Made by a program: the position numbers and the translations under genes. DNA of 64,000 bases from Odontesthes bonariensis (taxonomy: Eukaryota > Chordata > Actinopteri > Atheriniformes > Atherinopsidae), in assembly GCF_027942865.1 (NCBI RefSeq), contig NC_134519.1:36978941-37042940 (forward strand), read 5' to 3'. The notes below the pieces were generated by a model. That model ran no database searches. It saw nothing but the letters and a program-made list of their open reading frames with translations, and was not told the origin of the DNA. Below are positions 1 through 60,011 of the stretch, in pieces (the first letter of the stretch is position 1; the number at the start of each line of letters is the position of its first letter).

Positions 1-3000
1 ACTGCTGACTGGGACCACTTCCAGCCCCAGAATGACCGTTATTAACCCAGAAGTGCTCACACTCGGCAGGAAGCCCTCAACAACCAGCCACCGCTTTTTA
101 TCCAATCTCCAATTAAAGCAATTACTTTTACATTGAGCCGCGGTACCTACACTATAAGTGTTGTTCCTGCAGACCAATGGCTGTGAAAGGATAAACACGC
201 ATAAAGCAGGAAACCCTCCGGAGCGTCACCCTCAAGCTGTATAAGATAGCCAAAGTGGGTATCCACGGAAACTCCCTTCTGTATTAGAGCCGTGTGAAGA
301 ACACAAAAGTCCGCCAAAGCTCAGATGTGTACTCAATGTTATTATTGTTTAGTGCTTATATTCTGATGCACATGTCTGTTCTAGAGTTGCCAGGTCCTTG
401 ATTTTTCTTGATTTAGCTGAATGATGAAATTCATGAATATGTAGAAAATTAGCCTTCAGGTAAGCTGCAACATTGAAATACTCTTATTTAAATATCTGAG
501 ATGCATGAAAAAAAGATTGATTGTTGAGTAAACTAATTCTTACATAAACTGGTCTTTTTATCAAGAAAAAAGGATCAACCTTTTTCCTGTGAACTAATCT
601 TTTTTGACTAAATGTTTTAAATGGTTGCTTTTTAAATGTACTGTGAAAAAATAAAGATGATCAGGATCATAAGGACAACTCAACATTTTGCATCACCGTG
701 ACAACAAACAAATAAATGCTGTAAATAAATTGAAACTTGGAATTTGAAACATGGTTGCATTTTTCTTTACAATCCCAAGTGGCCGAAACATCACTGCAAT
801 GAGCTGAAAGAAAGCTGAGGTGGCCGTTTTTGCAGATATTAGTTCCGAAAAAACGCAGAACCAAATCCTTTGGAAGAAATTCTCCACATCAGAATCCAAG
901 TGAAAAGTCATGGAAATGCTGTTTTACTGAGGATCATGTTGGGCTCAAAGCTGGAGTCGGTGGTATCTGTCTAATAAATGTCAAGTAAACATGCTGTTAT
1001 TGGGTTACCAGCTGAAGGTGATGTAGTTAGCAGGGGTGGAGGGCAGCTGGCTCTTCTAATAAAATAGTCATATCCCCAATCACTGACCAAGCTAATTGAC
1101 AAGGGGAAAAGTGCTAATTGATTACAGGGCTGTCCTGTGCCAACACACCAGGGGACTGATGGGAATTGGACTGAGAAATTTTGGGTCTGTGAACTTGAAT
1201 TTCTCTTTTAGTAGGAGAAACGGTATGGGAAGTGTCCAACACACTGAGTCCTCCACCTTAAATTACACAGATGTTTGTTTGACCCCTTTAAGCTTATAGT
1301 ACCACAAGAAATGCCACAGATAAACTGTTCCAATCAGTAATGAGAGATAATATAATACACTCATACACATAAATATATTTATATATTTAGACTTGCCAAA
1401 GGTTGGGTTAGGTGTAGGTAAAAACTTATTGAATATGTTTACAGAAAAACCCAGTTTGCATTCATTTAAGTGCATTGTTAGGGTTAGAAATCTCAAAATA
1501 CCAACAGTAATGGAGGTTATGGAACAGTGGTGGTTAAAAAAAAATAGCAGTTTTGAGCATTTGTTTAAAATGGTTTTTAAAAAAAAAAATACATCAACAG
1601 ATTTAAAAAGTCCCTGAAACTGTGTTTCCATGCCAGAATCCAACACACCATATCAAAGTTATGAAGGATTGGACTCTAAACCACAATAAGTGACTAATCT
1701 TACATGCCTGAAACCTTACTACTAAATAGTTTTCATTCCAAATCCTAACCACCTCGTTTATTGCCAAGCAGTAACCAACACCTTGTTTTGCCTAAACCTA
1801 AAACAGTAGATATGATGTCTAATCCTAACTAAACGGCAAGTGTAAAGGAAACAAGGACTTCTAAAAAGAATTGACCTAAACTACCCTTGCACTCAGTTAC
1901 TTTGTCATACAGATAATTCAGTTTTTACACTGTAGGCTGATATCTAATAAATGCTGGATGGATTAATGTTGAGCATGACACATTAAGATTTGCCAAAAAG
2001 AAGTTACACATATGTGCTATCATATTGGAATTTTCAGAAACTGTTTCCGGAGATGAAGCCGAACACTCTTGTATTCCAGCATAAACTGACAGTTTATGGT
2101 TAAAATAGACCCGATCTTGGAATGAATCTTTTGTTATCTATCAAAGTAAATGTTGGGTCCAGCCCATGGGAGGGGCAACATGACATTTCCATGGAGGCTT
2201 CTAAACAGGTCAGCGGAGGAAACCATGGAGTCCAAAGCAGTGGGAGGGAGACACTTTCAACCAAAACCGTGTAACTGAATCTAAACCAGTGGTTAAACCC
2301 ATTCAACAGTGCAGGAATGGGGAGAGTGCTAACAATACAATACCATTCATGGGCTAACACAGTCCCAGTGGAATGAGCAGGGAGGGGTTTTAATCAGGCA
2401 GAAAGGCTCTCAGCCAGCCTGCCAGTCAGTTGGTCAGCCAGTCACCACACTATAGAGGCCATTGCTTCACATAAGCACTCAGATATCCACACCTACATCC
2501 ATTCCTGTTTATTTTCGATGGCGCTATACTCAGCTCTGTCTTTCTTTAAGAAAGCTTGTGAAATAAGAAAAAGATGTAAAGTTGGCAGCAGCACAGGGAC
2601 GTGATGAAGCAAGAGGAGCTGGAGAATGGGGGCTGAGAGTCAGTCTGCCCTTGGCCTGACCTGCAGCTTTCATGCGGCTTGAACACATCAGAAATCCTAT
2701 TGTGGGAGGTGATTAATTGAGAGTGATAACTTACCATGAACACAGATTGTTATAGGCTTTAATGTGGTAGGCCTGGCTTTTTAAACGCTGCTTTCACATA
2801 GCTTTGTAGTCCAGCATATGGGCCCAGACGTATTCACTGACAAAAGACGAAGAGAAATTCATCACGCTTGTACGTCCTGCTAACAACATGTTCTGCCTCT
2901 CTTTATCTAAAACCTTACTGCCTTTTAATCCTAAACTCAGATGGGAAACCGTGTTGTTGCACTGCAGATTTGTTGGAACTGTAATCATCAGACTGCTTTA

Positions 3001-4364
3001 AAAAAGATGCATTTTTAACCCATGGTGACATCTTGGTGTTGAACCAATCAGAGCCCTATTAGTCCATGTTTCTGGTTTCTTAAGGAGGTTGAGAAATAAA
3101 GTTTTGGAGCACAGCTTTAGGTTAAATCCTCACGTCATAATGACTTAGATAGATTTTCAATCCATTGATCAGATAATAAAAAGTCAAAGATGAGATAACA
3201 ACTTATTTTATTAGATTAAGAAATTAGAATCAATCATTGATCAATGATTTCAGTATTTGAAATTATAATGAAAAAACATTTTTTTTGATGAAAATGAAAG
3301 CTGTGACAGTTCCTGCTTTGTGAACAATCCCAATAACTGTCTGCACAGGGTGGGCACACTGCGGTCCAATGTTGGCTCATCACCTCGGATTTGAAGGAAA
3401 AATAGTAAAACATGTATGAATTATTTGTGCTGACACAAATCAATCACATACTTCTGAAAAGGGCCACTTCAGGAACAAGGTGGATAAAGGACAGTCAGGT
3501 GACATGTGCTCCAGCTGCAGTGGGGGGCTCCATGGCCCCCCAATTCCTGGATACAGGAGACTACAATTATTTTCCATTTCAGAGTGATGTTTGTCCCACT
3601 CACTACTCTGCTGTGAGGAGTGATATGGGCTGACATCAGCTCACCTCTTTCACAGTGCAAACAGGTCAACTTCTGCTGATGTTACAGCTTTAACATTTCA
3701 AACGCATCAACAGTCATTTCAGCACAAAATAAAAGCAATGTTATTATTATTTTTTGTTTTTATGTTCCTATGAACAAATTCTAAGGGTTGTAGAGAGTAG
3801 GACTGAACATAAAACAATGAGCTGAGCATCTAAAGCTGTCTGTAAGCAGCAGTGAAACACGTCTTCGGCTGATAGTGAGGCCGCTAAAGAAAGATGTGTT
3901 GATCTTGACCACAGCTCGGACCTGAGAGGATGGATGACACGATGACGGGGAATCGGGGAACTGAGAGACAGCACAGCCAAATGAGCCTTGCATGGGGACA
4001 CACAGTGTTTGTTCTGGGCTTTTCAGCAGTGTCAGGACCCCTGGGCCCTGTCCACGGGCCCTTATCTATCCCTGCTCAATTACTGATGTGTCAATAGAGC
4101 TCCATGAGCTGCGCAGGGTGGGGAGAGGGGCGGGGAAGGCTGGGACCTGGCTGGAGGTGGCCTGAGACCACATGGTAGGGTCATGCTGGGGGAGTGTGTG
4201 CCTTTGAGTCTCATTACCCCGGGGGCAATAAGAGGCGGCCAAAGACTGGTGGTGGTGGTGTTTCCAGGAGGGGGGGGGGGGTAAAGGTGTGTGCAGCCAG
4301 CCTGTTGGCTCACTTCTTTCAAAGTAGAAAAGGCTAAAAGCCAAACATGTTTTCAGTAATGATT
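1..4364. other. non-coding flank, no gene recognised
   Basis: Mixed AT-rich sequence in which I recognise no gene, RNA or mobile element. Open frames are short, at most about 127 codons, and resemble no family I know. A 12-base G run lies at 4270-4281, shortly before the minisatellite starts. The stretch could be intergenic or intronic; the sequence does not say which. Confidence 0.6.
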
Positions 4365-38643: not shown

Positions 38644-38649
38644 GCTTTG

Positions 38650-39165
38650 TACGGAAGCTTATTGCATTCACTTGATAAATTTTTTTTTTGGTTTGTTTTA
38701 CTGAGTAATTATTTGTCTTTTTCTGAGTAATTTATTTTTTTTCTGTTTTTTGGAATAATTATTTCTGTTTTTCTGAGTAATTTATTTTTTGTCTGTTTTT
38801 TGGAATAATTATTTCTGTTTTTCAGAGTAATTTATTTTTGGCTGTTTTTTGGAATAATTATTTCTGTTTTTCAGAGTAATTTATTTTTTGTCTGTTTTTT
38901 GGAATAATTATTTCTGTTTTTCAGAGTAATTTATTTTTGGCTGTTTTTTGGAATAATTATTTCTGTTTTTCAGAGTAATTTTTTTTCTTCTGTTTTTCGT
39001 GGTAATTTTTTTCCCCCTGTTTTTCGGGGTAATTTTTTTTGTCTGTTTTTTGGAATAATTTTTTCTGTTTTTCTGAGTAATTTTCTTTTTCTGTTTTTCT
39101 GAGTAATTTTTTTCCTGATTTTCTGAATAATTTTTTTTTCTGTTTTTCGGACTAATTTTTTTCCT
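38650..39165 (+). repeat. left inverted terminus with AT-rich subterminal array
   Basis: About 85 bp of terminal inverted repeat followed by tandem copies of a roughly 55-bp unit (GGAATAATTATTTCTGTTTT and CAGAGTAATTTATTTTT). The mirror-image array is at 45583-46035. Inner units are more degenerate and contain the CCCCCTGTTTTTCGGGGTAA variant, which also occurs in complement on the right side. Confidence 0.9.
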
Positions 39166-40053
39166 GAGTTTACAGAGCATTTGAAGATCCATTCATTCAT
39201 TGAGAGCTCGACTTCATGGTTACAAACATGAGCGACTTGTTCAGTTTAATCAAGTTTTACTTTGATCTGGGTTTAAGACACTGGGAGATAGTCCTGTCTT
39301 TAAGTCATATAGATGGTATTATCATTAGTTTGTCGACTCTACGCAGGCACCTGAGTACTTTGCGGCTGTTCAGAAGGAAAGCCCATTCAGATCTGCTAGA
39401 CATAGCAGTTTTTCTCCAGGATCAGTTGGACAGATGCGGTATGCTCCATGGATACAGGATGATGCATTTGAAATGCATTCAGGCTGGCTACGTGGTGACT
39501 CAAGAGACGATCAGGAGACTGCTGACAATATTGGATCCGCATGGTGTGGAGCTGAGGCGCCGGAATCGCCTTCGGAGGCGTATGTACCAGAATCCAGGCC
39601 CAAACTTTTTGTGGCATGTAGACTCCTATGATAAACTCAAACCGTACGGGATCTGCATCAATGGCGCAATAGATGGATTTTCACGAATGGTGATTTGGCT
39701 GCATGCTTACTCTACAAACAGTGATCCCAAGATAGCACTACTTCATTGATGAGGTGTCATCAAGGAATGGAACTGCTGCCCGAATTCGTTCGGACCTCGG
39801 AACCGAGAACTGTTACGTTGAACAAATGCAGATGTTCTTGAGGCACGATCATCTGGACAACTTTTCGCACAGATGTTACCTGTATGGATCGAGCAATCAC
39901 AACCAAAGAATAGAGAACTGGTGGGGCTTTTTAAGGCGGCAACACGCACAGTTCTGGATGAACCTGTTCCAAGATCTAAAAGACTCAGACTCCTTTTCTG
40001 GTGACTTTCTGGACAAAAGTCTCATTCAGTTCACATGTCTTGAAATAATAGAG

Positions 40054-40449
40054 GTAAGAACTGGAATACATTTATGTTGTTTCTTGTGACACCTGATTAG
40101 TGGTTCAAGAATTCAGATGTTTTACTTCTCCAAAAGCAGTAGTACTGCCCCGTGTAGTGGGTTATTTTAGTGTGGTACTAATATCATAGGCCTACTGATA
40201 TTAAGTGAAGTGCTCACTCCATGTAGGTTACATTCAAAACAAAGGACAGTATTATCAGCAGTATATATTCAAAGTATGAAAAAAAAGATAATTGCATGAG
40301 ACAGTTTACTACAACTGCAGATGTTTAAGTTGGAGCTGATTTGAATTACATTACTGGCTAGTTTAATGCAATATAATATTTACTGCAGTTGGTATAGCAA
40401 ATGTGTGAACTGATTTTCTTACTGTCTATTTTTATTTACTTATATTTAG
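40054..40449 (+). other. probable intron of the transposase gene
   Basis: Bounded by GTAAGA after a complete codon at 40053 and by TTATTTACTTATATTTAG at 40449. AT-rich with no coding resemblance. Inferred from splice signals and from the change of coding frame. Confidence 0.6.
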
Positions 40450-40460
40450 AGAGAACTGCA

Positions 40461-40475
40461 GGGTTAGGGTTAGGG
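40461..40475 (+). repeat. telomere-like GGGTTAGGGTTAGGG patch
   Basis: Fifteen bases of TTAGGG-type repeat inside the last transposase exon, between a RELQG start and the NAVSPGGRPV segment. It introduces stops in the expected frame. Confidence 0.7.
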
Positions 40476-40745
40476 AATGCTGTGTCTCCAGGTGGGCGCC
40501 CAGTGATGATGTACACCCTACCTCAACTTTTTGGTGCCAGAGAGTACCTGAAAGAGGTATCCCAGCAAAAGATAGACGCCTGCAGAGAGGAATGCCTTCA
40601 GAGAGGACCGTATCCCTGTGATGATGCAGTGTTTGATATTTGCTGCCTTGCCATGGCAGAAAACAGTCTTCATCCACCCACCTCTCCAGAGGAAGCCATT
40701 GAGCTTTACATGTTCTTACGTGTTTACATAAGAGCTCAAATTTAA

Positions 40746-41695
40746 TGATCACAACCTGCTGGACCTACTGGATCAAATGACTGAATCTAAGCCTTCACAT
40801 GAGGGTAGAAATTCTTATGGACCATACATTGCACATTTCTGTTTCTCTCATTAATTTACTGTATGTCATTTGCAGCCAAACAATTACATGTAACAAAATT
40901 TGGTGAATATGTATGTATCTAAAATTAGTTGGGGATTATCATGTCATCTCTCAAACAAATAAACAGATTAACTATTCTTATGTATTTGAATGAAATGTCA
41001 CTCTATAAATTTATGTTGAAATGCAGTTGTCATTAAACTTTCAGCAAATGAAGCATATGATTATCTTTTATTAGGGCATGCATCTTTCCTTGAGTTTACA
41101 CACAGTTGTTAACTTCAACATTTCACAATACAAGCACCCCATAACAAAAGGAACATGTCCAATTTTAAGATTGTGGTCTCACAGAGCAGGACTCCTGAAC
41201 TACATGACCCAAGACACAATCTGTATGAAGACAGTTGTACAAAACAAGTGTAAAAAAAACACCTCAACTTGCTACAAGTAGATTCACAAACACTGTCAGT
41301 ATTAACATCTGACATGAGGTAGAGGTTGAAATTCTATTATGATTTAACAGTGAAAACATAACAAAAGTATATCTAATGTTCAAACATTTTCATCCTTGAC
41401 TGATAACAAAAGTGTCTTAAATCAAAGTAAATTCAGCCCCTGAGGTAGTCACATATTCTCTTTATAGAAGCTCTCATAACAAAAAAATGTCTCAGTAAGT
41501 CTGTGTAAGTTATTGTTCCTTGATATAATAAAACCAACATAATAAAAATAATTTTGCACTAATCACACAGCACCTGAGCTAATCACATTTTCTCCTTACA
41601 TGCTCTATCCCACATTCACACAGTCTAAACCTACATCGCTGCCACTGATGGAGAAGAGAAAAATGTGTATGTGTTCATAAGTCACTTAGCCGCTC
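40746..41695. other. 3' ends of two converging transposon genes
   Basis: AT-rich sequence between the transposase stop and the stop of the HECT-like gene on the other strand. It holds candidate polyadenylation signals (AATAAA-like) but no coding resemblance. Likely the two 3' UTRs. Confidence 0.5.
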
Positions 41696-44658
41696 TTATG
41701 CAATGTCCATTGCATAAATGTTGCTGGACAGTATAGCCTCCATTTCAGCTCGAAGCTCAGGATAGCTGTTGTAAGTTGATGGCAGCTCCACAGTTGGGCC
41801 ACAAGTATGGGCAACTGGCCGCCGCGCCAGCCCTTCCAAAGAGGTGAATGTGACTTGAATTTCTTTTACACAGATGACATCAGACCCAGTCAGAAATCTC
41901 ATCAGCTTCCGGAGACCTATTTCATCCAATCCCCTTATGTACTGATATAAAAATTGCAAACTTTGGTTCTCTGCTGAAGTAGCTGGAGAAGCTGTTATCA
42001 TCTTTATCACCTTTCGTGTTGTTGGTTTAATGTCCTCATACAGCTTCTTCATATCCTGTACACTGGGGAAAAACTTCCTGAGTATTGGTCCTGCAACCTC
42101 TTTAATATTATCAAGTGCATATTTTGGGTGCTGGATCATTTGCTTGTGGGCAACCTGGACAAGGACAGCTCTCAAGTTATCTTGTGTTGGTACTGTTCTT
42201 ACTCCCATGCGATCCATAAGATCAAGGAGCTCTTCCTCATCATCGCCGACAACAGCCTCTTGCAAAGCAGTGGACAAGAGATCACGCTCAGACTGACTAA
42301 GATACAACATCAGGGAGTCAAAGAGTAAATCAGGTGAAACAGAGTGTTCACTAAATGTGACAGCTGCAGTAAAGGCTTGAGCCAGCCGAAATGGAAAATA
42401 CCCATGGTCCTTCAGTCCCTTGGTCAATATCCTGCCAACAGACTTCCATTCCTCCTCTTGCCATTTTGGGGAGAGTGATGGCACCCTCACATCTGCACCT
42501 TCTGCTGCACAGTCTAGGAATTCTGTCCAGAAGGCAGCGTAAACATCCCTGGATACACCATCAGCATCTGCCCCCATTTCATCAATGAAGCTGTATTTCA
42601 CAGAGTAAGTCATCATTGCTTCATCCTTGAATTGGGCAATCAGTTCATCTAAGAGAGTCACTCTGTGAAGTCTCACAGTCACATGCAAAAGTTCATTGGC
42701 AGGACTTGGTGGTCTAGCAGAAGCTGTCTCAGTATCAATAGGAGTTGAGGTGTAGGTGGGGGTGTTTATTTGTTCATCTTCTATTGCAAGGATTGGCTCA
42801 TGTATGAGTGTATCATCAAGATCACCTAAAAACGGCCCACCTGTCAAAGGACCAAAACTGACCTCTGATGTATTACACAAAGATGTAAGATCAATAATCT
42901 GAACAGCTGCAGTAGAGACAACAGCTGACATTGTGGCAGTGCTTAGCTCATCATCTTCGACTGTGTGCATTTGATTTTCACTGTTATGTCTTTTCTGTGT
43001 CAGCTGTTCCCCTTCCATTGTGTGCGTCTCTTGTCCAGATTCTGCTGTGTTTTCATGTTGCTCATCTGTCTGTATGTCAGCTCCTTCCTCTGGGTCATCT
43101 CCACTGGTCAGGGTCTTTGTGAACAAATAAAATCTTAACAAACCCAATTTGTGTTTCTCGTAGTAGTCTCCCACACTAACATCCTCATCAAGTTGTGCTT
43201 CCTGAAAGTCAACTATATCATGACTGAACTCTTCCCACTTTCCCATTGTTGACTTTTCATTAGGGAAAAATAGTTTCTTAGCTTGTGACAGAATCTCAGT
43301 TTTCGTGGCATTCTTGTTCATGTCAAGAACTCTGGTTCCTCCACCACTGCGTTTTCTGACTTGTCTGCTGTCATGTTTCCACGCTAGTTCTATTTTTCTG
43401 GTTGTCTTCCAGGCTCTCTTATTACTTTTTAGACGTATGTTTGTTGGATGCACTGTATTCTCCCCATCAAAACCTTGAACTTCTTTGTTGCTCATTGTGC
43501 CCATTTTTTTTAAAGTTTTTTGAATAAGGACAGTCTTGTGGTATCATCTCCACCTCTTCTCTGTTTTTCCATACAGAAACGCCTTGTGGCAATCCTGTCA
43601 CCATAGGCTGGAATGTAAGAGGCCATGGTTGCATCATCTATTTCTCCAATTATCGAGCTGTCAATCTGCAATAAAAACAAAAAGTATACATTAGACATGA
43701 CACAGCTTAAACTACATTATCTCCAAGACTATTTACTTCTGTGCTAAATTCCAGGACAACCAATTATAAATGCCTAATGCAGATGATAACACAATGGACA
43801 GTATGAGACAGTGAAGCTGGCAATAATGTAGTGTGCTGATATAAACACTAGACATTTATTCTTTCTGCTATGTTAATGATATATCAACAGTAACTTGAAA
43901 GGGTACTTAATCCTGTTCACCTATTGTTTTAGTTTAAAGTCATGCATAAATTTTCAAATGCAGTCAGATGGGATTAATTATCCTTTCTATTCCATATACT
44001 TACTATCATATTATGACACAAATAATTAAATACTATAAATGTTACAATGTATTAGTTTAGCATGATATATATTGAAAGTGTTGTTCTAACTGTTCTTATA
44101 CCATGTACATCATCTATACTATCAAGATGTAAACATTGCATCTGAGTTGTCCAATTTTATTAATTGGTTGCACATTACCATACTGGCAAAAAATGTTAAG
44201 AATCAAGTCTTACTTTGATGGCACAGAATACTTGACTTATATTTGACACTGAAAATCTCAAATAACAGCATTTTAAAACATATCATATCAAAGCAAAATA
44301 TAAAGCAGTGAATAGTTTGTATATTTATTTGTATATTTGTGTAACAGTGATGTCTCTCAATGCAGGCTGCATTGTTGGAAGGGATGCTTGACAAATGCAA
44401 ATATTTGAACCTCTGGAACCACATGTGATGGTCTAAAATATATAAGTACATTTAAAATCATTTGAAGTTCAGTGAAATATAAACATATAGTTGGGGAAAT
44501 CATTTTAAAAATGAATATAGCCCTGCAGGAACAAATTTTCTGTGACTTACATGATCCCGCTGCATTTTCTGAATACTCTCCTCAGGAACACCTCTGTTGC
44601 GGAGAAATATCTACAGACCATCATCATGAGGGAGGCCGGGGCTTGAGGATGAAGCCAT
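41696..44658 (-). pseudogene. HECT-type E3 ubiquitin-ligase-like protein of the transposon
   Basis: Two exons on the minus strand. Exon 1 is 44658-44551: 36 codons starting MASSSSPGLP, ending in GVPEESIQKMQRDH and a GTAAGT donor. Exon 2 starts after TTTTTATTGCAG at 43665 in the same phase (IDSSIIGEIDD...SYIPAYGDR) and ends at 41696. Exon 2 holds a 602-residue frame from ATG 43504. Its residues 272-602 are HECT-like: GADADGVSRDVYAAFW at 311-326 and, near the end, PVAHTCGPTVELPSTY with Cys568 where HECT ligases have the thioester cysteine. Residues 1-130 (RKIELAW, GGGTRVL, KAKKLFFP-like) match the N-terminal region I associate with fish proteins labelled 'G2/M phase-specific E3 ubiquitin-protein ligase-like'. 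Lesions: an in-frame TAG at codon 16 (44613-44611) and a one-base frameshift in the run of A's at about 43505-43515. Whether a shorter protein from ATG 43504 is made is open. It would transfer ubiquitin; the target is unknown. Confidence 0.82.
43666..44550 (-). other. probable intron of the HECT-like gene
   Basis: Starts with a GTAAGT donor at 44550 and ends at a TTTTTATTGCAG acceptor at 43666, and joins two exons in matching phase. AT-rich with no coding resemblance. Confidence 0.7.
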
Positions 44659-45582
44659 TGCTGGCACTGCAAAAAATGTAGTAAAAAGGCAGGATCTATA
44701 TAAATATTTGCATCAACAATTCACACATTTAAAACTGTCAAGACCAATTGTGTCATGATATTGTCGAATTATATGAAAGCTTAAAATAATTTTGTTTAAA
44801 ATGGATGTTTCATGTCTTGTTCAATACTCTATCTGTATAGTCATTTGAAAGTCGACCTGTCATTAAGCATTTTAATGTGCTTACTCAAATGACCAGTGTC
44901 ATTTTGTGATGAAAGCCTTCCCTGGTTATTCATAAACAATAATATTACTCTAATAGTACAGAAGACTAAACTCGGCATCTCAGAGTGGGCTTTTAGTATT
45001 AGTATAATAGTTATTATTATTACTAGTACTCAAATAGTCAATAAAATAGTCAGTAAGCAGATGCAAAAACGTTTTACATTTTAAATAATTTTATTCACAG
45101 GCCTGTACAAATAATATGCATGCATATGTTAAATAGCCTACAAAGGAAATAGCAAAGGAGAGGGAGCCCATAAGCAAACCACAGCAACCCCAGAAACTCA
45201 AAACACTCGTCATGGTGCATCAATGGTGTCAATATATAGTGACTAGTATACTGGCAACGTTCTGTTTGTTTGCATGCTTACGTGCCCCCTGTTAAGCAAC
45301 TGTTACGATTAAATGTTACTATTCTCATGTTACGTCTCTATAGTGTTGGTGTATAGGCTACTATTAGCATAACCTAACGCGATAGGCTTACAATAGACGG
45401 ATAGTAAACATAACTAACTCTGTGTGTAACTAATTACATGCCTTACCTTAATTGACACGGTACGGTAGAGAGTTGAAGGCAGGTATGCGCGGGCAGGAGT
45501 CACCGTAAGTTCACGACATGGTCCCCTGGAGAACGGGAGTCTGTTACAGGTTGGATCTTCTCGCGGGAGTTGGAAGTATCGC
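44659..45582. other. 5' region of the HECT-like gene
   Basis: Sequence between the proposed start codon and the right subterminal array. A GC-richer patch at 45460-45570, next to the array, is the likeliest promoter or first non-coding exon for the minus-strand gene. No coding frame recognised. Confidence 0.4.
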
Positions 45583-46035
45583 GATATTAAAAAAAAAAAA
45601 ATGACTCCGAAAAACAGGGGGAAAAAAATTACCACGAAAAACAGAAGAAAAAAAATTACTCAGAAAAACAGAAATAATTATTCCAAAAAACAGCCAAAAA
45701 TAAATTACTCAGAAAAACAGAAATAATTATTCCAAAAAACAGCCAAAAAAAATTACTCCGAAAAACAGGGGGAAAAAAATTACCCCGAAAAACAGAAGAA
45801 AAAAAATTACTCAGAAAAACAGAAATAATTATTCCAAAAAACAGCCAAAAATAAATTACTCAGAAAAACAGAAATAATTATTCCAAAAAACAGAAAAAAA
45901 ATAAATTAGTCAAAAAAACAGAAATAATTATTCCGAAAAACAGACAAAAAAAATTACTCAGAAAAACACAAATAATTACTCAGTAAAACAAACCAAAAAA
46001 AAAAATGTATCAAGTGAATGCAATAAGCTTCCGTA
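45583..46035 (-). repeat. right inverted terminus with AT-rich subterminal array
   Basis: Inverted counterpart of 38650-39165. Units of the form CAGAAATAATTATTCCAAAA and CAGCCAAAAATAAATTACTC repeat to about 45990, then the terminal repeat runs to 46035. Two arrays inverted against each other over about 450-500 bp could fold into a very long stem and are probably transposase binding sites. Confidence 0.9.
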
Positions 46036-46041
46036 GCTTTG

Positions 46042-49128: not shown

Positions 49129-50211
49129 TCAGGTGTTGTAGGTGATTTTGAACAGGTGGGTTTTGAGCTGGCTTTTGAATGAGGGGAGTGTCTCGGAGTT
49201 CCGGATGGCGGGGGGCAGGGAGTTCCAAAGGGTAGGGGCAGCGATGGAGAACGCTCTGTCCCCAAGGGTGCGGTACTTGGTCTTGGTGATGGGAGTGAGG
49301 AGGTTTGCATCAGAGGAGCGGCGACGTCGAGTGGGGGAGTAGGGGTGGAGGAGGTTTGTAAGGTATGGAGGTGCAAGGTTGTTGAGGGCTTTGTAGGTGA
49401 TGAGAAGGATCTTGAAGTTGATTCGCTGTTTTATTGGAAGCCAGTGAAGTTGTTGAAGGATGGGAGTGATGTGTTCTCTGGAGGGGGAGTGAGTGAGCAG
49501 TCGGGCGGCTGAGTTTTGAACATATTGCAGTTTTTGAAGAGCAGAGGAGGGGAGGCCATACAGGATGCTATTGCAGTAGTCGAGTCTGGAGGTGATGAAG
49601 GCATGGACGAGTGTTTCGGCAGCTGGGGGGGAGAGAGTAGGGTGAAGGCGTGCAATGTTGCGGAGGTGGAAGAAGGCTATTTTGGTAACCTGGTTTATGT
49701 GGGATTTGAAGGAGAGTGTGGGGTCCATGATGATGCCGACATTTCTGACCAGGGGGGAGGGAGTGACAGAGTGACCATCAATGCAGAGTGAGAAATGCTG
49801 GGAGGTGGGGAGGGTGGATTTTGGGCCAAAAATGATAATTTCAGTTTTATTGCTGTTGAGTTTGAGGAAATTGTGATTCATCCAGGCTTTGATGTCAGTT
49901 AGGCAATTGGTGAGGGTGGAGAGAATGGCAGGAGTAATGGCAGTGGTAGTGATGTATAGCTGGGTATCGTCGGCATAACAGTGGAAGTGAAGACCATGGT
50001 GGCGGATGATGTGACCTAGTGGGAGCATGTAGAGGATGAAGAGGATTGGTCCGAGCACTGAGCCTTGGGGAACTCCGTGTGAGACAGGGGCGGTGAGGGA
50101 TTTGTGGTTGTTGATGGAGATGTAGTGGAGTCTTTCAGATAGGTAGGAGGTGAACCAGGAGAGAGCGGAGTTGATGATGCCAATGGCTTGCAGACGGTTG
50201 TCTAATATGTT
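49129..50211 (-). pseudogene. L2-clade LINE reverse transcriptase, 5' truncated
   Basis: Minus-strand open frame of about 360 codons carrying the second half of a non-LTR reverse transcriptase. From the N side: [50 protein letters not shown] with the catalytic YADD, an [11 protein letters not shown] motif, the thumb ([18 protein letters not shown]), [19 protein letters not shown] and the C-terminal [20 protein letters not shown]. Ends [10 protein letters not shown] at 49129. The endonuclease domain and the first half of the palm, with its first catalytic Asp, are missing. The motif order and C-terminus fit the L2 clade (fugu Maui-like). The frame is intact, but the enzyme is incomplete and cannot copy RNA. 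Confidence 0.88.
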
Positions 50212-50349
50212 AAACAAACCTTTAACAAACTTGAACAGGTCCCTGTAAAACGCAGTCCTTACATATTCTTTCTTCTTTCTCTTTTTCCTAAGATATTCAG
50301 CCCTTCTGAGTATTGCTAGCCTGCTTCTCAATTCTTCCTGCAAAAGCAT
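50212..50349 (-). pseudogene. fragment of a second LINE, fused in frame
   Basis: The first 46 codons of the same open frame ([20 protein letters not shown], then [13 protein letters not shown]) do not belong to L2. They resemble the basic segment between endonuclease and reverse transcriptase in another fish LINE group. The frame passes from this piece into the L2 sequence without a stop, forming a chimera by chance of insertion or recombination. Confidence 0.55.
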
Positions 50350-50397
50350 TTTACTTATTTATCTTGTCTTTTATTTACTATATATTTTACCTACTCT

Positions 50398-57023: not shown

Positions 57024-57393
57024 AAGGATAGCTACACGTCTCGGAGCACACGCTCTCTACCAAGAGCCTGACGCGCTACTGAATCCAAAAGTAGAAAGTC
57101 AGCCGCTGGTTACGCTTCCCATTGACCTTGTTATATACAGAGTCAAATTAACCTTTAATTAGTGCATAATTTAAGTCAAACAGAATAATGTCAGCATCAT
57201 TGTGTTGTATAATGTATAAATTTATTTATGATTGCTTCAAAGTAATTAAATATATTCGGTTGCTATGCGCCGGTCTTATCGGCAGCAAGTCTGTGTAGCT
57301 CTCAATTTTTCTTGTCGTTTATATGATTATATGACGTTTTTAAGTTTTAGCTTTTAGCTAAACATTTTTAGTTATTTTTATTGATCTGCTTTT

Positions 57394-58170
57394 TTGTTTT
57401 ATTTGAATTTTTTGACAATGTGCACTACCACTAGAGCAGTGTACACAACAGAAGAACTGTTGGTACTGTCAAGGATTGGACGCGGAATTAAACATCCAAT
57501 TCCGACCAAGCTTAAAAAGCTGTTCCGTGGATGCAGAGCTGGAGCAAAACTAAAGGCAAAGAGGCACAACAGGAGGTGGAGGTACAAACCTTTTCTGCCC
57601 TCGGTGATCATGGGAAACACTAACTCACTGTCTAACAAGTGTGATGAGTTAGAGGTGCTTGTGTGGAACCAACAGCTGTATAAGGAGAGCAGTTTGATCT
57701 GTCTGTCTGAATCCTGGCTGAACGACAACACACCAGACTCATGTGTGCACATACCCGGCTTCACAGCCGTACGAGCGGATCGAGACCTGAGTACGAGCGG
57801 TAAGCGGAAAGGCGGGGGTGTTATACTGTTCTTTAATCAGAGATGGGTAAACCCCCGCAATGTGACCGTTAAGGAGACGGTTTGTTGTCCAGACATCGAA
57901 CTGCTGTCAGTTGGTTTCCGTGCATTCTATGCACCCAGAGAGTTCCCATACACAGTCGTTATCGTTGTTTACATTCCACCGAGGGCGGCACCTACAACGG
58001 CGTGTGACGTCATCCATGACGCCGTTGCTAGGATACAGACCCAGCATCCTGAGGCATTCATTGCAATCACAGGAGATTTCAACCACGTCTCTCTATCCTC
58101 CTGCCTGATTGGCTTTGTACAGTATGTGGACTGTCCAACACGTGGAGAAAAGACATTAGATCTGTTCTAA
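57394..58170 (+). pseudogene. LINE APE-type endonuclease part
   Basis: Residues about 70-250 form an apurinic-endonuclease-like domain: VIMGNTNSLSNKCDELEVL (Asn motif), ICLSESWLND (metal-binding Glu), RADRDLSTSGKRKGGGVILF, FPYTVVIVVYIPPRA and AITGDFNHVS with the catalytic GDFN, ending CPTRGEKTLDLF. The frame stops directly after LDLF, where an internal deletion of perhaps 500 bp joins it to the segment before the reverse transcriptase. The domain nicks target DNA to prime reverse transcription. The usual SDH histidine motif near its end is missing. Confidence 0.8.
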
Positions 58171-58268
58171 AGAGGGCGTTCCAGAATGGGGATGGAGAAA
58201 GACGGAGGATTGTACAACACAAGCTTAAAAAGACATTACGTCGAGGTAAGGTGGAGTACAAGTAAAAG

Positions 58269-59609
58269 GTGGAGAGACAGCTGGAGAACAATAACACCAA
58301 GGAGGTGTGGAGGGGCATGAGGACCATCACTGGATACAGACTGAAGAACTCTCAGTCTGTAGAAGGTGATGTGGACAGAGCCAATACTTTCAACCATTAT
58401 TACAAAAGGTTTGACAGTGTGGCTTTTCCCTCCTCTGCTGCTGCTCCCTCCACCCCCACCACTACAGCTGCTTCCTCTATACAGCTTCCACTGCCCTGCT
58501 GTACTTCCACCTCAATGGCAACCTGCATCGCCAAGCCTCCTCCTCCACCTGACTACACCCCCACCTCTGCAGCAGCTCTCACCAACAGGCTTCTTCTGTC
58601 CAGCTGTACCTCCACCTCTATAGCAGCTTCCACCGCCAGATCTCCTAAGCCAAGCTACACCTCCACCTGTGCGGCAGCTTCCACCACCAGGCCTACTGAA
58701 CCCAGCCACACCTCCACCTCTGCGGCAGCTTCTATCTCCAGGCATCCTGAGCACAGCTGCATCTCCACATCTGTGGCTGCTCCCACCGCCTGGCCTCTTC
58801 GGTCCAGCTGCACCACCACCCCCATCTCTATGGTTGATAGCAACATCACTCCTGTTGCCATCCCTCCGCTACAACCTCTGTGTCTAACTATAGAGGAGGT
58901 TGGAGCTGAGCTCAGGAGACTTAAGTCAGGGAGGGCTTCAGGCCCAGATGGAGTCTGTCCAAGGCTTCTGAGGGACTGTGCTGGCCAACTAGCAGTCCCT
59001 CTTCAGAGGCTCTTTAATATGAGTATTCAGATGGAAAAAGTCCCGGTGCTGAAATTTGGGCAACCGGTGGAGCTGAATGACTACAGACCGGTGGCTCTGA
59101 CATCTCATATCATGAAGACCTTGGAGAGACTCCTTGTTTGTCGCATGAGATTGCAGGTTGCTGAGGCTCTTGACCCCCTCCAGTTTGCCTACCAGAAACA
59201 CATAGGAGTGGAAGACGCGATTCTGTACATGTTGCATCGGGCATATGCTTATCTGGATGTGCCTGGTTCATATGTGAGAATCATGTTCTTTGACTTCTCC
59301 AGTGCCTTCAACACCATACGCCCTCCCATACTGAAAGACAAGCTGCTCGGTATGGGTGTGGCCCCCTCCCTGACATCATGGATTATAGACTGTTTGTCTG
59401 CCAGACCACAGTATGTCAGGATGGGGAAATGTGTTTCTGGAACACTGGAATGCAGTACTGGGGCTCCGCAGGGTACTGTTTTAGCTCCTTTTCTTTTCAC
59501 CCTGTACACATCAGACTTCAGGTACAACTCAGAGTCCTGCCACATACAGAAGTATTTTGATGATACGGCTGTTGTGGCATGTGTGCATGGTGGACAGGAA
59601 AAGGAGTAA
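58269..59609 (+). pseudogene. LINE reverse transcriptase part
   Basis: 446 codons. N-terminal part (NNNTKEVWRGMRTITGYR), then a long Pro/Thr/Ser-rich insertion at about 60-185 made of short repeats (STSAAAS-like), then the reverse transcriptase: RASGPDGVCPRLLRD, LNDYRPVALTSHIMKTLERL, MFFDFSSAFNTI with the first catalytic Asp, TGAPQGTVLAPFLFTLYTSD and IQKYFDDTAVVACV with FDD at the YADD position. A short stretch before LNDYRPV is lost. Stops at 59609, with the C-terminal piece in another frame. Confidence 0.82.
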
Positions 59610-59615
59610 AGGGAT

Positions 59616-60011
59616 CTTGGGGAGGCCTTTACTGACTGGACCAAAAAGAACTGTTTGCTCCTGAACATCACTAAGACCAAAGAGCTGGTGGTGGACTTCA
59701 GGAGATCTAAAACCCCATACCAGTCAGTCTGCATTGATGGAGGGAAGATAGAGACTGTTCAGACCTGCAAATACCGGGGGGTGGTGCTGGATAATAAACT
59801 GGAGTGGTCTGCCAACATAGACGCAGTGTACAGGAGGGGCCAGAGCCGTCTCTTTTTCCTGAGACGGCTCAGGTCCTTCAATGTCTGCAGTGACATGATG
59901 TGCATGTTTTATCACACTATCATTGAGAGTGCACTGTTCTATGCTGCTGTCTGCTGGGGGAGTTGCACTACAGGACAGAGGAACAGCTGCAGTGAGAGGC
60001 TGCAGGACTGA
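59616..60011 (+). pseudogene. LINE C-terminal piece
   Basis: LLNITKTKELVVDFRRSKTP, then YRGVVLDNKLEWSANIDAVY, RGQSRLFFLRRLRSFNV and AVCWGSCTTGQ, all typical of the segment after the reverse transcriptase in this LINE family. Out of frame with 58269-59609. The normal tail (Leu-rich region and RLFN end) is mostly deleted: the sequence jumps to SFRRSFVPTVRRLFNRDC-like text at 60012-60068. Confidence 0.75.

Follow-up and report, generated by a model that had tools for sequence, protein, structure and literature searches.

A probable two-gene IS3EU/GingerRoot-type DNA transposon with a HECT ligase-like accessory gene in Odontesthes bonariensis

Introduction

IS3EU transposons have TA..TA ends, as a rule generate 6-bp target-site duplications and lack an HHCC motif (PMC10045372; this and the other PMC sources are cited here from parts of their text). 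Fungal IS3EU families have the termini TAYGG..CCRTA, and TET genes, for which a role in methylation escape has been proposed, are carried by fungal IS3EU and by other transposons (PMC12730594). An ancestral IS3EU with two proteins was inferred by the authors who described Styx (PMC10853768). Here we describe an element at positions 38650 to 46035 of a 64,000-nucleotide stretch of the Odontesthes bonariensis genome (RefSeq assembly GCF_027942865.1, contig NC_134519.1, positions 36,978,941 to 37,042,940 of the forward strand; hereafter, the window). The element is probably an IS3EU/GingerRoot-type DNA transposon with two genes, one coding for the transposase and the other, an accessory gene, for a HECT ligase-like protein.

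Results

The sequence TACGGAAGCTTATTGCATTCAC is present at 38650-38671 on the forward strand and at 46014-46035 on the reverse strand. With up to three mismatches allowed, the window contains no other match, and none was expected by chance (100 shuffles). A first-pass annotation of this DNA had proposed matching terminal inverted repeats flanked by a 6-bp GCTTTG duplication, and both were recovered, the coordinates given there being exact to the base (Table 1). The two ends are alike over about 440 bp (87% over 453 columns in the top BLAST row); beyond the first 100 bp or so, the similarity is that of arrays of about 50-bp tandem units, found at both ends, which may be repeated transposase-binding sites. 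Neither blastn nor tblastn, the latter run with six relatives, detected a further copy of the element in the window. The element terminates in TACGG..CCGTA. Together, the TA..TA termini, the 6-bp duplication, the DDE integrase-type transposase and the absence of an HHCC motif make it very likely that the element is a member of IS3EU, an assignment based on features rather than on a reference tree. This adds to the first-pass annotation, which named no superfamily.

The two genes lie on opposite strands, tail to tail, and each has a single intron with GT..AG ends. In the transposase gene, the DDE residues were located by hand at 39621-39623 (D of HVD), 39793-39795 (D of SDLG) and 39913-39915 (E of IEN), with 39 residues between the second D and the E. 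Both frames of exon 1 matched the Pfam family PF24764 ("Integrase core domain") with 45 and 35.6 bits, above the cut-off of 26. Thus, the DDE core read earlier from the motifs LWHVD, RSDLGTEN and RIENWW was confirmed. The predicted structure of the transposase resembles MuA and IstA. An HHCC zinc motif was not found: in an alignment of 38 relatives, no H or C occupied an invariant or near-invariant column before residue 129. In exon 2, GGTTAGGGTTAGGG (around 40462-40475) occupies the place of coding sequence present in P0106. It consists of two telomere-like units, perhaps left behind by break repair.

The first-pass annotation had also placed a HECT-like C-terminus with a candidate cysteine (HTCGP) on the reverse strand and had proposed a comparison with a HECT profile. 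PF00632 (HECT) matched that strand with 31.6 bits against a cut-off of 23.9. The HTCGP cysteine is residue 568 of the 602-aa frame (codon 41803-41801, assigned by hand), and the position is conserved in 95 of the 97 hits that cover it (145 examined). A bilobal HECT fold is present, as judged by structure comparison of the model. The main frame of exon 2, preceded by a frame shift in an A-run (around 43505-43530), comprises a beta-rich region, a disordered linker and the HECT domain, by comparison with the model of P0004. No named fold was assigned to the N-terminal helical region (about residues 15-73 of the model) or to the beta-rich region (about residues 126-222) in structure searches that were filled by the HECT domain. 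Pfam families detected in 39 members of the HECT family were HECT (38), DUF7676 (2), DUF1722 (1) and UBX (1, weak). We conclude that a DDE gene and a HECT-like gene do lie within one transposon bounded by terminal inverted repeats, as first proposed.

Table 1. Features of the element (window coordinates)
Feature	Position	Strand	Remarks
Target-site duplication GCTTTG, left copy	38644..38649	.	sequence
Left terminal inverted repeat: about 100 bp near-identical to the right end, followed by subterminal tandem repeats with units of about 50 bp	38650..39165	+	
Transposase exon 1, PF24764 integrase core, DD39E	39228..40053	+	frame broken near 39735-39739; donor GAG/GTAAGA
Transposase exon 2, to stop codon	40449..40745	+	frame broken at GGTTAGGGTTAGGG
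HECT gene exon 2, main frame to stop codon	41696..43528	-	catalytic cysteine codon 41803-41801
HECT gene exon 2, first part (IDSSIIGEIDD...)	43504..43665	-	acceptor TTGCAG/ATTGAC
HECT gene exon 1, start of N-terminal helical region	44551..44658	-	one in-frame TAG; tblastn with P0004; donor CAT/GTAAGT
Right terminal inverted repeat and matching subterminal repeats	45591..46035	-	
Target-site duplication GCTTTG, right copy	46036..46041	.	sequence

We then compared the divergence of the two genes across 18 species or contigs in which both genes had a listed hit; Apostichopus was not included, and HECT row P0026, whose Mustela label stands beside Oreochromis and is probably wrong, was omitted. Each species was represented by its best listed hit, and some pairs may therefore stem from different elements. 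The rank of identity to the two genes of the window agreed (Spearman 0.93), and the pairwise distance matrices of the two genes correlated at 0.74, a value as high being reached in 0 of 2000 permutations. The correlation was 0.68 among fish only and 0.71 with Apostichopus added, again with 0 of 2000 permutations as high in each case. In both genes, the distant host Danio and the genera Oryzias, Nothobranchius and Poecilia show about the same divergence from the window, and Pampus and Pleuronectes are nearer. The pattern is thus not wholly host-following.

Clusters of both genes share one contig of 632,383 bp, with 15 members in each cluster. In Perca, Pleuronectes, Argopecten and Culter the two genes were found on the same chromosome, as identified by identical size in bp. 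Of the 20 chromosome-scale pairs, drawn from 13 species, 4 were on the same contig (P = 0.009 at 1 chance in 24 per pair), a count in which some pairs may mix assemblies and which leaves aside the 632-kb contig as well as Merluccius, Fundulus and Apostichopus, where one side is a contig below 1 Mb; no contig was shared in these three. Named hits common to both families came from teleosts, sturgeons, bivalves, gastropods, sea cucumbers and beetles. Transposase hits were also obtained in Xenopus, Erpetoichthys and a feather star, for which a HECT partner was not among the matches listed. The correlated distances and the shared contigs lend indirect support to a shared history of the two genes, a question already raised by the first-pass annotation.

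Several observations weigh against a HECT gene that travels with the transposase. Both genes are broken in this copy, and just one copy bounded by terminal inverted repeats was seen. When the comparison was confined to the window and nine percomorphs (ten rows), the distances correlated at 0.36, a value reached in 47 of 2000 permutations; much of the larger figure is therefore accounted for by host phylogeny and broad divergence. Perca (0.55 for HECT, 0.85 for the transposase) and Merluccius (0.91 and 0.70) were mismatched, 16 of the 20 chromosome-scale pairs were on different contigs, and nine of the 13 species gave no match. Finally, the transposase family had 591 hits as against 105 and 66 in the two overlapping HECT sets. 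Many IS3EU elements may therefore lack this gene, although the HECT searches scored only 7,989 and 7,996 candidates.

Scanning of viral contigs yielded 20 pattern matches with the HECT alignment and 73 with the transposase alignment, with no relative among them. In prokaryote genomes, the transposase alignment gave 44 matched stretches and two loci. One, at 1107-3080 of a Myxococcales metagenome-assembled genome contig (VK_bin-1538; L001), encodes an IS3EU-like transposase with 25% identity; the other (L002) is in a metagenome-assembled genome of a sponge symbiont. Both are suspected to be eukaryotic contamination, and neither is informative on the pairing with HECT.

G2E3 has PHD/RING-type domains ahead of a C-terminal HECT domain. 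The family described here shares the HECT domain at the C-terminus, but PHD and RING domains were not matched by Pfam in the 39 members, and membership in G2E3 was rejected for this reason. Nor did "G2/M" or "G2E3" occur in any name among the 105 and 66 HECT hits listed, in which names are partial and many rows nameless. The earlier suggestion that fish loci annotated as "G2/M phase-specific E3 ligase-like" are cargo of this transposon family thus found no support in the hit names or in the domains. A weak hint comes from Cottus, in which an unclassified repeat has a blastx match to G2E3 (PMC5638112) and may be a relative of this element.

Two other HECT-like sequences were unusual. The representative of one cluster (P0069, 459 member sequences) has a glycine at the position of the catalytic cysteine, and the cluster is possibly an inactive but amplified version. 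In a gene model of 975 aa from Labrus bergylta (P0024), an N-terminal region repeated three times is fused to the HECT part; this is perhaps a mis-joined model over a transposon copy.

Elsewhere in the window, about 24 kb of tandem arrays with units of 34/50, 20/70, 12 and 30 bp form a large satellite block (4364-29034) that contains very long open frames in several frames. Open frames at 49129-50358 and 57385-60011 resemble, by eye, pieces of retrotransposons without long terminal repeats (reverse-transcriptase and endonuclease-like).

Discussion

We infer that the HECT gene has long served this transposon lineage as an accessory gene and is not a host gene trapped once; one IS3EU lineage would have carried it for long, inside a wider family that need not. 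That the gene belongs to the element lineage we hold with considerable confidence, and with equal confidence we take intact relatives, in which the fold and the cysteine are conserved, to be active ligases. The chances seem evenly balanced for the fuller picture, in which an old, animal-wide IS3EU lineage, from molluscs to fish, has as its stable second gene a HECT ligase, co-evolved with the transposase, that either clears the transposase complex once insertion is complete or counters a host defence; it would be an E3 ligase encoded by a transposon.

The class to which IS3EU belongs is known to move by cut-and-paste through its transposase. By analogy with the superfamily, the transposase would bind the ends, with the repeated subterminal motifs as probable further sites, then cut and insert with a 6-bp stagger. 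The ligase may take ubiquitin from a host E2 onto the conserved cysteine and modify a nuclear protein to the advantage of the element; this is the least certain step. The target could be a host silencing or repair factor, or else the transposase-DNA complex, removed after insertion. These seem the two most likely targets, and no result separates them. A host protein acting in silencing, chromatin or DNA repair is a plausible but tentative choice, for which the TET genes of fungal transposons provide a precedent (PMC12730594), the argument being one of analogy. It is rather doubtful that the ligase regulates its own transposase, either by ubiquitinating the transposase-DNA complex and thereby having it dismantled after insertion or by limiting the level of the protein. 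In phage Mu, the unfoldase ClpX removes the stable MuA transpososome. This precedent, the likeness of the transposase model to MuA and IstA, and the indirect signs that the two genes travel together would fit such a role, but a ligase directed at a host protein should travel with the transposase just as well.

Capture of host genes by DNA transposons is a known phenomenon, and the HECT gene could have been captured once, by this copy or subfamily, as a passenger without function for the element. Such a capture would agree with the single bounded copy that could be read, with the intron of the HECT gene and with the weak correlation of distances among percomorphs. We nevertheless consider it improbable: HECT relatives, some with no more than about 30-40% identity, have a patchy distribution among animals that resembles that of the transposase, the divergence of the two genes is correlated overall, with the 632-kb contig shared, and the catalytic cysteine is kept in nearly all the relatives (95/97). 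Large clusters (64 member sequences in P0007 and 459 in P0069) may also represent multicopy genes, or else repeated sources. Insertion of an unrelated HECT-bearing repeat into an IS3EU element is very improbable: the HECT gene does form one block on the opposite strand, but the divergence of the two genes is correlated overall and no second long inverted-repeat pair was found, the 25 longest of 193 pairs all joining the end arrays, in a listing that is blind to a nested element without inverted repeats.

A ligase-like gene beside the transposase suggests that certain animal transposons come equipped for tagging proteins. The accessory genes that DNA transposons carry (kinase, TET dioxygenase, nucleases) mark steps that need help, and with a ligase that stays beside the transposase it would become testable whether ubiquitin serves transposons to finish insertion or to evade silencing. 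Some genes annotated in fish and molluscs as "uncharacterized HECT domain protein" would then be transposon genes, to be masked ahead of gene-family counts. We found no paper that pairs IS3EU with HECT; Repbase and the GingerRoot paper, which lay outside the search, may already record the pairing. Among the papers listed for "HECT domain" and transposase, judged mainly by titles, none announced a HECT-bearing transposon.

The element shares with IS3EU/GingerRoot the TA..TA ends, the 6-bp duplications and a DDE integrase-like transposase without HHCC (PMC10045372, PMC12730594). Like the TET-bearing IS3EU families of fungi, it has an additional gene in the opposite orientation, but the second gene there is an alpha-kinase, accompanied by a TET/JBP gene (PMC12730594), whereas here it is HECT ligase-like. 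Styx, an IS3EU-derived element of Zymoseptoria fungi, also combines an IS3EU-type DDE transposase with extra genes; however, it is 7.9 kb long, the genes have GATA, CCHC and DUF3577 domains, and the term "hect" is absent from the main text of its description (PMC10853768). Kolobok elements are likewise DDE transposons whose lineages have differing accessory enzymes, but they form a separate superfamily, for which the part of the source cited names nucleases, a helicase and KolX and no ligase (PMC9587614). The HECT gene shares the bilobal fold and the catalytic cysteine with the UBR5, HUWE1 and NEDD4 types of ligase, but identity to UBR5 and HUWE1 is only 14-17% in the aligned HECT domain, and, unlike all three types, the gene described here is transposon-borne and has its own N-terminal regions.
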